A DNA stretch of 39,890 nt, taken from an uncultured Alphaproteobacteria bacterium. Lineage in GTDB: Bacteria; Pseudomonadota; Alphaproteobacteria; Sphingomonadales; SMXR01. Location of the stretch: NCBI GenBank assembly GCA_937126915.1, contig CAKZLM010000112.1, forward strand, positions 1 through 39,890, in the 5' to 3' direction. Made by a program: the position numbers and the translations under genes. Shown piece after piece: positions 28,799 through 33,822 of the stretch (position 1 is its first letter; each line of letters begins with the position of its first letter). The notes beneath the pieces are model-generated. The model had not been told where the DNA came from. It searched no databases and was given only the letters and a program-made list of their open reading frames with translations.

Positions 28799-30109
<1,311 letters not shown>

Positions 30110-30133: not shown

Positions 30134-30159
30134 AAAGGCGGCTTTTGCCGCCTTTTTTT
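30134..30159 (+). terminator. Rho-independent terminator after purA
   Basis: AAAGGCGGC (30134-30142), TTTT loop, GCCGCCTTT (30147-30155), continuing in Ts to 30159. Perfect 9-bp stem. Confidence 0.93.
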
Positions 30160-30340: not shown

Positions 30341-32332
30341 GTGGCGCAGTTACTGCCGCAAAGATATAAAATTGATTTTCAGCAAAAGCTACCTGAACTA
30401 AACACAGTTGCAGGTGATGCTTATGCTGTACGTGGTGACAGCCCCACTGGCGCAAAAGTTTATGCGGTGGTTCATTCAAAAGCCTTTCCAGGCCGTCCTG
30501 AAATCATCGCTCATCAGCGTAAAAACCCCATGCCTAATTTGGCGAATGTCATTGACCGTGGGGTTATAGATTTTTCTACCGGACATGATGAAACCGTTGA
30601 GCGCATGGTTAGTATCATTGAAAAACCAGCTGGCAAGCCGCTGGCTAGTGGTACAACCTGTGTGCGGATGAGTGAAAAAGAACTAAAAGAAAATTTTTTA
30701 AAACCTGCGTTGGTTTTATTAGCTAATATGCATGGCAGGGACTTAATTCATCGGGCAATTTCACCTTATTGGATTTTTACCGCCGACAAAGATAATGAAA
30801 GTATTACTTTTGGGGAATGTGCCACCGCCTCGCCGGGGGCTGATCAGCCTGACCTTTTTGAACCCATTGAACGCTTGCTTATACCTTTTTTTGCCCGTGG
30901 ACGTGCCAGCGCTGCAGCTGATATTTATGCCTTAGGCATGACCGCCTTTTGCCTTTATATTGGCGAGGTGCCTGACCTTGGTGAGGACCCCGATAAATCT
31001 TTCCATGAACGCATTTCAAGAGGCACCTATTGGCTGATTAGTTCTGGTCGTAACACGCCCACCTCGATGGAAACCTTTTTCAAAGGGGTTTTAACCGATG
31101 ATGCTGAGGAACGCTGGACGCTAAATGATATTGCACAATGGCTTGATGGTAGCAGCAATATTAAGCGTGCGCGAAAATTAAATGTATTGTTTGCAAGACC
31201 GGTGAAATATCAAGGCTCTAATTATACCGACCGTCGTCTATTGGTTAAAAAATTTGCTGAAAACCCAGAAAAAGCGGCGGCTTATTTACGTTCATCCGAG
31301 TTTTCATTGTGGGTTGCTCAGTTTTTATCAAACGAAGCTTTTTCCGACCGGATGGAATCGCTGTTGAATGTTCAAATGTCTGATGGCTTTGATGGGGACC
31401 CAATTGTTGATCAGGCAATGGTCACGCGGGTAAGCGCGTTTTTAGATCCCTATGGACCCCTTCATTACCGTGGATTAACGCTTTCTTATGATGCCATTCC
31501 TGAGTTTTTAGCGGTTTGCTATCAAGAAAATGATTTAGAAGGCATCTCAAAAGTTGAAGATTTATTGGGGTCTGGTCTTTACGATGTTTTAATCGAGATT
31601 GTTGGCACGTCAAACTATACCGCTCATAAATCTGCTGGCATGATATCCCGTAAAATTGGTGCCGTTAAAAACAATAAAGTTGGACAAGGGCTGGAACGTT
31701 TTCTTTATGAAATTAGGCCAGATTTACCTTGTTTATCGGGGCATTTCAAAGGTGTTTGGGTTAGTGATTTGACCTCAATCATTTTGGCGATGGAAAATAT
31801 TCTACAAGACAAAAAACGAGCGAGAACCATTCTTGATCCCCATGTTGCCGCCTATTTAGCCGTTAAGATGGACATGTTTAATCGTCTGTTCTTAACGCAT
31901 TCAGGCATGGGCTTTCCGGATGGGCAAAAAGCCGCGAATTTTGTGGAGATTTTTGGCGCTTTGCAGTTAGAGCTTAATTTGGGACCATTGCCAAACTTGG
32001 CTAAGGCCTTTGCTGAAAGTTTGAAAACAATGGTGCGAAGCTTAAAGTTGGAAGAGCGACGTGATAAGGTTGCCAAGCAGTTGATGGAAATTGCCGACAG
32101 TGGTGAAATTGGGCGGCTTTTAACCGAACTGCAAATTGGTCAGTTGAAAAAATTAGATGACCGTGAATTTGCCGCAGCTAAAATGCGTTATACGGCCCTA
32201 GAAGCAGAAAAGAAAAGATTATCACTGGGTGTTAAGGCATCAGATCCAAGGGCCTTGTTAGAGGGGTATCGGTGGATATCCTATGTGGCGTTTATTATTT
32301 TGGGCCTTGCTGGCTTTGCTGTTTTCTCGTAA
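30341..32332 (+). CDS. Tail-anchored protein-kinase-like pseudokinase
   Basis: 663 residues; GTG start with GAGAAGGGGA ahead. Residues about 25-270 follow the Ser/Thr kinase fold: a hinge-like IIEKPAGKPL, LIHRAISPYWIF in the place of the HRDxKPxN loop, ITFGEC where DFG is expected, and an intact subdomain IX motif ADIYALGM (Asp194). The key catalytic residues are gone: no VAIK lysine (YAVV), HRD is HRA (137-139), the loop Asn is Trp, and the DFG Asp is absent. A long helical region (about 270-640) ends in a single TM (about 644-662), so the protein is tail-anchored facing the cytoplasm. It is probably a scaffold rather than an enzyme. It is followed after 9 bases by a small membrane protein gene. 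I recall similar proteins in Rhodospirillales-type genomes but no function. Confidence 0.8.
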   Translation: MAQLLPQRYKIDFQQKLPELNTVAGDAYAVRGDSPTGAKVYAVVHSKAFPGRPEIIAHQRKNPMPNLANVIDRGVIDFSTGHDETVERMVSIIEKPAGKPLASGTTCVRMSEKELKENFLKPALVLLANMHGRDLIHRAISPYWIFTADKDNESITFGECATASPGADQPDLFEPIERLLIPFFARGRASAAADIYALGMTAFCLYIGEVPDLGEDPDKSFHERISRGTYWLISSGRNTPTSMETFFKGVLTDDAEERWTLNDIAQWLDGSSNIKRARKLNVLFARPVKYQGSNYTDRRLLVKKFAENPEKAAAYLRSSEFSLWVAQFLSNEAFSDRMESLLNVQMSDGFDGDPIVDQAMVTRVSAFLDPYGPLHYRGLTLSYDAIPEFLAVCYQENDLEGISKVEDLLGSGLYDVLIEIVGTSNYTAHKSAGMISRKIGAVKNNKVGQGLERFLYEIRPDLPCLSGHFKGVWVSDLTSIILAMENILQDKKRARTILDPHVAAYLAVKMDMFNRLFLTHSGMGFPDGQKAANFVEIFGALQLELNLGPLPNLAKAFAESLKTMVRSLKLEERRDKVAKQLMEIADSGEIGRLLTELQIGQLKKLDDREFAAAKMRYTALEAEKKRLSLGVKASDPRALLEGYRWISYVAFIILGLAGFAVFS

Positions 32333-32341
32333 GGATAAATG

Positions 32342-32851
32342 ATGGCACAAAAACAAGCACCCCCTCCACAACAAGGTAAGCAGGAAGAGAAGAAAAGCTC
32401 GGCTGTTATGGCATTGATGTTGACGGGCTTTATCGGTGCGGCATTTGTGTATCGGCCAGCGTTGGTTATGGTGATGATGGCGGGTTTAATCCCAACCTTT
32501 GCAGCTTGGCTAACAGATGCCCATAAATTGCGTGATCTTCGGGTTCGTATTATTTTTGCCTTTAATGTTGCGGGTATTTTGCCTTATGCCGATGAGGTCG
32601 GCAGCGGTGACAGTGGCTTTAACCAAGCTATTGAATTGGTCACAAATCTAGAAACATATATGGTGATTTATAGTTTTGCCGCGATGGGTTCATTCGTGGT
32701 GTTCATAGCACCCTTTGTGGCGGCTTTTTTCCTGCAAATTATGGCGAACAGCCGTATAGCCGTGATTAACTCCCAGCAAAATAGCTTGCTTGATAAATGG
32801 GGAAACCAGCTAAAGGGTGAAGGCAAAGATGATGGCGACAAAAAGAAATAG
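32342..32851 (+). CDS. Small polytopic membrane protein, pseudokinase partner
   Basis: About 169 residues. I choose the ATG at 32342 over 32339, because AAGGA (32331-32335) then sits 6 bases ahead. A hydrophilic Gln/Pro/Lys-rich N-terminus (1-20) is followed by two close TM helices (about 23-60, with FVYRPALVMVMMAGLIP), a soluble loop containing LRDLRVRIIFAFNVAG (possibly a re-entrant or third helix) and ADEVGSGDSGF, and a long TM (about 115-140, SFAAMGSFVVFIAPFVAAFF). The tail is Lys/Asp-rich. No known domain is recognised. Its 9-base spacing from the tail-anchored pseudokinase suggests one membrane complex. Confidence 0.7.
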   Translation: MAQKQAPPPQQGKQEEKKSSAVMALMLTGFIGAAFVYRPALVMVMMAGLIPTFAAWLTDAHKLRDLRVRIIFAFNVAGILPYADEVGSGDSGFNQAIELVTNLETYMVIYSFAAMGSFVVFIAPFVAAFFLQIMANSRIAVINSQQNSLLDKWGNQLKGEGKDDGDKKK

Positions 32852-32872: not shown

Positions 32873-32906
32873 AAAAGGCCCAACAACTTAATTGTTGGGC
32901 CTTTTT
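32873..32906. terminator. Bidirectional terminator between membrane gene and rpoH
   Basis: AAAAGGCCCAAC (32873-32884) pairs with GTTGGGCCTTTT (32894-32905), extended by two inner A-T pairs to 14 bp with a 5-base loop. A-run on the left, T-run on the right. It serves both convergent genes. Confidence 0.92.
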
Positions 32907-32928: not shown

Positions 32929-33822
32929 TTAGCTTGCTTGGGCGTTGATCAATTGTTCTTTGGCGGCGTTTTTGATGGCCTTTTGCAGCTTTTCAAAGGC
33001 GCGCACTTCAATTTGGCGAATACGCTCGCGGCTAACATTATATTGACCGCTCAAGTCTTCCAATGTGGTTGGGCTTTCTTGCAAACGGCGCTGGCGAATA
33101 ATATCTTGTTCACGCTCGTTTAAATCTTTCATGGCGTCTTCCATCAAAGCGATACGGGCTTTATATTCTTCACTTTCTGACAGCAAGGTTTCTTGGTCAG
33201 GGGTGGCATCCTCTAACCAGTCCATCCATTCGCCTTCACCATCACTAACCAGTGGGGCATTCAATGATTGATCGCCACCAGACATGCGTCGGTTCATTGA
33301 GATCACTTCTTCTTCGCTAACGTCCAACTGGGTGGCAATGTGTTTGGCGTTTTCAGGGTTAAGGTCGCCTTCTTCAATAGCGTTAATTTGGCCCTTAATA
33401 CGGCGTAGGTTAAAGAATAATTTTTTCTGTGCAGCGGTGGTACCAATTTTTACCAAGGACCAACTGCGCAAGATATATTCTTGGATGCTAGCTTTAATCC
33501 ACCACATGGCATACGTAGCAAGTCGAAAGCCTTTTTCGGGGTCAAAGCGTTTAACCGCCTGCATCATGCCAACATTGCCTTCAGAAATTAGTTCACCCAC
33601 AGGCAGGCCATAACCACGATACCCCATGGCAATCTTGGCAACCAAACGTAAATGAGATGTTACCAATTTTTGGGCAGCGTCACGATCACCGTGTTCAACC
33701 CATGCTTTGGCATGCATGTATTCCTCATCCTTGCTAAGCATAGGAAAGGTGCGAATTTCTTGTAAATATCGAGTTAAACTGCCGTCAGGTGTAATTGACG
33801 GTACATTTTTAATGTTACTCAT
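32929..33822 (-). CDS. rpoH: RNA polymerase heat-shock sigma factor RpoH
   Basis: 297 residues. Region 2 includes LVTSHLRLVAKIAMGYRG and GNVGMMQAVKRFDP with YAMWWIKASIQEYILRSWS. The RpoH box AQKKLFFNLRR (about 131-141), which separates RpoH from other group members, is intact. Region 4 ends with the helix-turn-helix NVSRERIRQIEVRAFEKL. It directs RNA polymerase to heat-shock genes. It lies downstream of rluD on the same strand with a 129-base gap. A perfect TTGACA (minus strand, 33882-33887) sits upstream, but no fitting -10 follows at normal spacing, so the promoter remains open. Confidence 0.97.
   Translation of the reverse strand: MSNIKNVPSITPDGSLTRYLQEIRTFPMLSKDEEYMHAKAWVEHGDRDAAQKLVTSHLRLVAKIAMGYRGYGLPVGELISEGNVGMMQAVKRFDPEKGFRLATYAMWWIKASIQEYILRSWSLVKIGTTAAQKKLFFNLRRIKGQINAIEEGDLNPENAKHIATQLDVSEEEVISMNRRMSGGDQSLNAPLVSDGEGEWMDWLEDATPDQETLLSESEEYKARIALMEDAMKDLNEREQDIIRQRRLQESPTTLEDLSGQYNVSRERIRQIEVRAFEKLQKAIKNAAKEQLINAQAS

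Follow-up and report, generated by a model that had tools for sequence, protein, structure and literature searches.

Organization of the A-B locus

The analysed window is a 39,890-nt stretch from an uncultured Alphaproteobacteria bacterium (Sphingomonadales; SMXR01), comprising positions 1-39,890 of contig CAKZLM010000112.1 in assembly GCA_937126915.1. Two adjoining genes, designated A and B, are situated between purA and the convergent rpoH (Table 1). Both open reading frames were found at the positions given in an earlier note on this DNA, and B lies directly 3' of A: six bases separate the stop codon of A from the ATG of B, or the reported nine if the stop codon is counted. The Shine-Dalgarno sequence of B overlaps the stop codon of A (TAAGGA), which suggests that the translation of the two genes is coupled.

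Table 1. Coordinates of the features at the A-B locus (positions of the window).
Feature	Position	Strand	Remarks
purA	28808..30109	+	upstream neighbour, kept in 40/61 loci
Intrinsic terminator 3' of purA	30134..30155	+	9-bp stem and T tail; separates purA transcription from the A-B module
Gene A	30341..32332	+	663 aa, putative tail-anchored pseudokinase; GTG start, AAGGGG upstream
Kinase-fold domain of A (~aa 1-269)	30341..31147	+	Pfam Pkinase 110-266, AlphaFold2/Foldseek, homologue column counts (61 and 116)
Post-kinase helical domain of A (about aa 283-634)	31187..32242	+	near-invariant Y456, C464, D499, H501, Q542
C-terminal transmembrane anchor of A (aa 645-663)	32273..32329	+	hydropathy 2.04; model helix 636-662
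Gene B	32339..32851	+	170 aa, polytopic membrane protein; nearly always adjoins A
Bidirectional terminator common to B and rpoH	32873..32905	.	14-15 bp stem
rpoH, then rluD	32929..33822	-	convergent neighbour, kept in 40/61 loci

The module had been described as carrying terminators on both sides and a promoter of its own. The flanking terminators are strong, with folding energies of -16.2 kcal/mol (z -4.2) after purA and -20.8 kcal/mol (z -6.6) between B and rpoH. The promoter can only be inferred, as the plus-strand stretch from the purA terminator to the GTG of A contained no sigma70-like match.

The order serC-serA-hisZ-purA-A-B with the convergent rpoH-rluD is the common slot of the pair, purA and rpoH each being retained in 40 of the 61 loci. 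The annotated order in the chromid of Azospirillum thermophilum is hisZ-purA-'serine/threonine protein kinase'-hypothetical-rpoH, where adenylosuccinate synthase is annotated at the position of purA and RpoH at that of rpoH.

Kinase-fold domain of A

The kinase-like region recognized earlier in A was found by both profile and structure searches. The Pfam Pkinase profile (PF00069) matched A of the window with 19 bits (E=0.001), which is below the gathering score of 31.7. Matches at E<=0.01 were obtained with 48 of 61 A homologues, and some family members exceeded the gathering score (33.1 bits in G439 and 36.4 bits in G281). The AlphaFold2 model of A had a mean pLDDT of 82.9 and a pTM of 0.77. 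Foldseek retrieved 1,848 PDB matches at E<=0.001 with this model, the best being CaMKK, PknA and PknB (E 2e-8 and target TM about 0.6-0.7 against kinases). According to the model, A has a bilobal protein kinase-like fold.

In A of the window, His45 occupies the position of the beta3 (VAIK) Lys, Ala139 that of the HRD Asp, Trp144 that of the catalytic-loop Asn and Glu159 that of the DFG Asp, while the structural D194 and R258 are kept. Among 116 unique full-length homologues, the beta3 Lys was present in none and the HRD Asp in one, so the homologues with intact HRD/DFG named earlier as counter-evidence were not encountered in the family. The single Asp at the HRD position was observed in L044 (G350; HGDIRPTN), where the beta3 Lys is still absent. 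The His and Arg of the HRD motif were conserved in 111/116 and 87/116 homologues, and D194 and R258 in 115/116 each. The claim that all three catalytic anchors are replaced thus holds for the VAIK Lys and the HRD Asp and is too strong for the third. The loop lengths put Glu159 at the DFG Asp, as does the same HRD-to-DFG spacing in an active-looking cousin from G448 (see below), and the substitution is conservative, since 77 homologues have Glu in this column and 28 have Asp (105/116 together). Judged by these motifs, the A family falls within the general definition of a bacterial pseudokinase, i.e. at least one anchor absent family-wide, and the label 'serine/threonine protein kinase' given to A in public records is misleading.

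The columns around the altered site are well conserved: R52 in 112, H137 in 111, G158 in 112 and C160 in 92 of the 116 homologues. The catalytic-loop Asn144, which is Trp in the window, is kept in 99/116. In ordinary kinases, the residues equivalent to Asn144 and the acidic residue 159 are the two that bind metal. The motif counts are consistent with a family that has lost phosphotransfer and retained a conserved pocket, and the preservation of Asn144 and Glu/Asp159 in most members suggests that the role of the pocket may go beyond a structural one. It could, for instance, be a repurposed active site which still works on a nucleotide or another ligand or performs an atypical chemistry of the SelO/SidJ kind, with B as the membrane partner or substrate presenter. 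The conserved pocket residues (R52, H137, Asn144, G158, Glu/Asp159, C160) favour such a site even though the catalytic positions are gone. However, both phosphotransfer residues are missing in practically all members, A of the window is also devoid of the Asn, and no catalytic precedent was found for the motif set of A; we therefore regard a working site as rather unlikely.

Helical domain and membrane anchor

The long helical region reported after the kinase part was recovered at about residues 298-634. This domain of ~350 residues holds the most conserved positions of the whole protein (Y456 and C464 in 116/116, D499 in 115/116 homologues). It is not named in Pfam or NCBIfam, and sequence comparison with the PDB gave no convincing relative. 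A search of 192 genomes yielded no copy of the domain without the kinase part; G162 and similar cases have short frames that lie on split contigs or frames. The C-terminal transmembrane segment proposed earlier was likewise recognized, and a matching hydrophobic segment is present in 60 of 61 homologues.

The loss of phosphotransfer residues, together with the retention of the structural residues of the kinase fold and of the helical domain, points to selection on the fold without phosphotransfer. A evolves fast (mean tree distance 2.86 vs 0.67 of purA), as would be expected if the gene were a kinase relic, decaying or neutral. This is contradicted by the full-length frames in about 130 genomes, the near-invariant residues and the conserved partner and locus, and a relic is hardly credible.

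Protein B

B consists of a polar N-terminal tail, hydrophobic helices (three clear segments and a possible fourth) and a C-terminal helix with a near-invariant WG at its end. No family, fold or sequence match of B was found in the databases searched.

Distribution and pairing of A and B

The presence of strong matches to A and B was determined in 387 alphaproteobacterial genomes. Strong A and strong B occurred in the identical 130 genomes, which span about 60 family labels (~63 counted), and no genome had a strong match to one alone. The Fisher value of this co-occurrence, 1e-106, ignores phylogeny and linkage, and neighbouring genes co-occur in part because they are inherited and lost together. 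In a set of 60 relatives, full A was found in 32 and B in the same 32. Kordiimonas, Eilatimonas, Rhodothalassium and Azospirillum are among the carriers. The only A match outside Alphaproteobacteria among 397 Pseudomonadota genomes was that in G448.

The genes adjoin in 60 of the 61 diverse loci inspected, so the absence of a conserved pair, which had been named as a possible refutation, does not apply. In G244 and G314 the two genes are unlinked, on different contigs, and both are kept. Tandem copies are duplicated as A-B A-B (G172, G288, G354). The complete co-occurrence (130/130), the adjacency, the co-duplication and the loss of catalysis through essentially the whole family strongly support a dedicated pair of a pseudokinase and a membrane protein, as the earlier note had proposed. 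The mirror-tree signal of A-B (partial r 0.40) was no stronger than that of A-purA (0.38) and does not single out a contact.

The pairing is not fully obligatory. Second A copies without an adjoining B were found in L160-L165 and L167, G070 has three extra B genes with no A nearby in unrelated neighbourhoods (L155:8380-8898, L156:8278-8871, L157:8058-8492), and G184 also carries four B genes. Because of these orphan paralogues, the pairing rule holds per genome and not for every copy. In two families, second A copies lie among TPR and glycosyltransferase-41 genes (L159:11644-13539, L160:4985-7000, L160:11020-13164), and those in L161-L164 adjoin a small glyoxalase-family gene. The neighbours of second A copies and of unlinked B genes have mixed functions with no common theme.

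In G172 (L172:3240-12891), the tandem A-B A-B immediately precedes flhA, a MotA/ExbB-family gene and a sigma54 activator, all on one strand with it, which is the only flagellar-operon location seen for the pair. These two pairs, and the FlhA-family gene found in 117/130 genomes with A against 109/257 without it, would fit an accessory role at the flagellar motor or export apparatus. However, the FlhA association is confounded by phylogeny, the usual A-B locus is the purA/rpoH slot, and many flagellated Alphaproteobacteria have no A-B. In addition, 13 genomes with A had no FlhA match, several of them related to members of the same family that do have one (f56, f73, f93, f95, f103); such relatives argue against a flagellar function, which we consider improbable.

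Other kinases in the genomes with A

Pseudokinases commonly act as allosteric partners of active kinases. A could accordingly serve an active Ser/Thr kinase, and 9 of the 25 other A-containing genomes sampled do carry another Pkinase match above the cut-off. None was found in the remaining 16, and apart from A the 99% complete host genome gave no PF00069 match at E<=0.001, which largely refutes such a partnership for the host organism and makes it very improbable in general. A need not regulate an active Hanks kinase, and a stand-alone structural role fits these counts better than allosteric control.

Comparison with known systems

The active-looking Ser/Thr kinase of G448 (L151:6990-9626, 879 aa) aligned with positions 81-436 of the A profile, covering the kinase domain and the beginning of the helical one, with a much weaker score (102 bits, E 6.5e-31). 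Like A, it has hydrophobic stretches near the C-terminus, as read from the sequence. In contrast to A, its VILKF, HRDIKPGN and ADFG motifs are intact, and an extra region, beta-rich by eye, precedes the C-terminal hydrophobic part. No B family match was detected in the 17 kb surrounding the gene. The G448 kinase is a candidate for the ancestral architecture of A.

Hardly any bacterial pseudokinase has been characterised, and for the majority of the families described there is sequence knowledge only (PMC12599244). EssB/YukC of type VIIb secretion is a membrane-anchored degraded kinase fold acting as a non-catalytic scaffold (PMC12599244). Judged by this description, A resembles it in manner, and we count this precedent of a membrane pseudokinase in favour of a scaffold role of A. 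EssB/YukC is described as membrane-straddling, its C-terminal segment being helical and lying past the transmembrane helix (PMC3694306), whereas A ends in its transmembrane helix. EssB/YukC is encoded in a Firmicutes secretion locus, whereas the neighbours of A are serC, serA, hisZ, purA, rpoH and rluD. EssB was absent among the 50 of the 1,848 Foldseek matches that were listed for the A model.

Of the bacterial pseudokinase families reviewed in PMC12599244, GLW, CP1 and DLHK were compared with A by their described features, and A fits none of these three. The review also covers DYD and ActPs1-3, the latter described as mainly actinobacterial. In the GLW pseudokinases of proteobacteria, GLW replaces HRD and the beta3 motif is LLLL/W (PMC12599244), whereas A has HR[A/S], with HRA and AVVH in the window. 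CP1 pseudokinases have no transmembrane segment and are fused to a COG3899 ATPase; A has the C-terminal hydrophobic segment in 60/61 homologues and no second Pfam domain. DLHK pseudokinases retain the HRD Asp and also lack a transmembrane segment, unlike A with its HRD Asp in 1/116 and its C-terminal hydrophobic segment. SelO and SidJ share with A a kinase fold with altered catalytic residues, but both retain the Lys that binds ATP (table in PMC12599244), which A never has.

Weak matches to the kinase region were given by two NCBIfam models, the class IV lanthionine synthetase LanL (51/61 members; 33.8 bits vs a cut-off of 650) and the MADS MAD6 kinase (29/61 members; 32.1 bits vs a cut-off of 460). 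Both identities were rejected, as the scores are far below the equivalog cut-offs and the neighbours are housekeeping genes and not a lantibiotic or defence locus. PADLOC defence models matched A by weak kinase-domain similarity only, and a defence system was also dismissed.

Proposed role of the A-B unit

On balance, we favour, with some reserve, the view that A, catalytically dead and anchored in the membrane, acts as an adaptor or sensor together with B, and that the two genes form an ancient unit of Alphaproteobacteria. This view combines the kinase fold predicted by the model with the observed absence of phosphotransfer residues, the hydrophobic anchor at the C-terminus, the genetic pairing, the conservation and the two terminators; the scaffold or sensor role itself we infer. 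The C-terminal helix of A would fix the protein to the inner membrane on the cytoplasmic side, and its kinase fold and helical domain would form a protein- or ligand-binding platform. B would probably contact the membrane anchor of A directly and either position A or pass on a signal.

A bolder version, which we think has a small chance of being correct, is an Alphaproteobacteria-specific membrane complex in which the repurposed pocket (R52, H137, N144, G158-E/D159-C160) serves a ligand or an atypical chemistry and the outcome is relayed via the helical domain to B. If true, it would be a platform for signalling or assembly of a kind not described before.

No study of A-B was found in the open-licence literature searched, and the function of the pair appears never to have been studied; the earlier label 'undescribed' for the module agrees with the content of the databases and papers searched. 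A is widespread in the whole class, usually single-copy, mostly in one fixed slot and with one membrane partner, and it is often the only kinase-fold protein of its type in the genome. Owing to this combination, the function of A could be approached by simply deleting the gene in a tractable organism, for instance Azospirillum.
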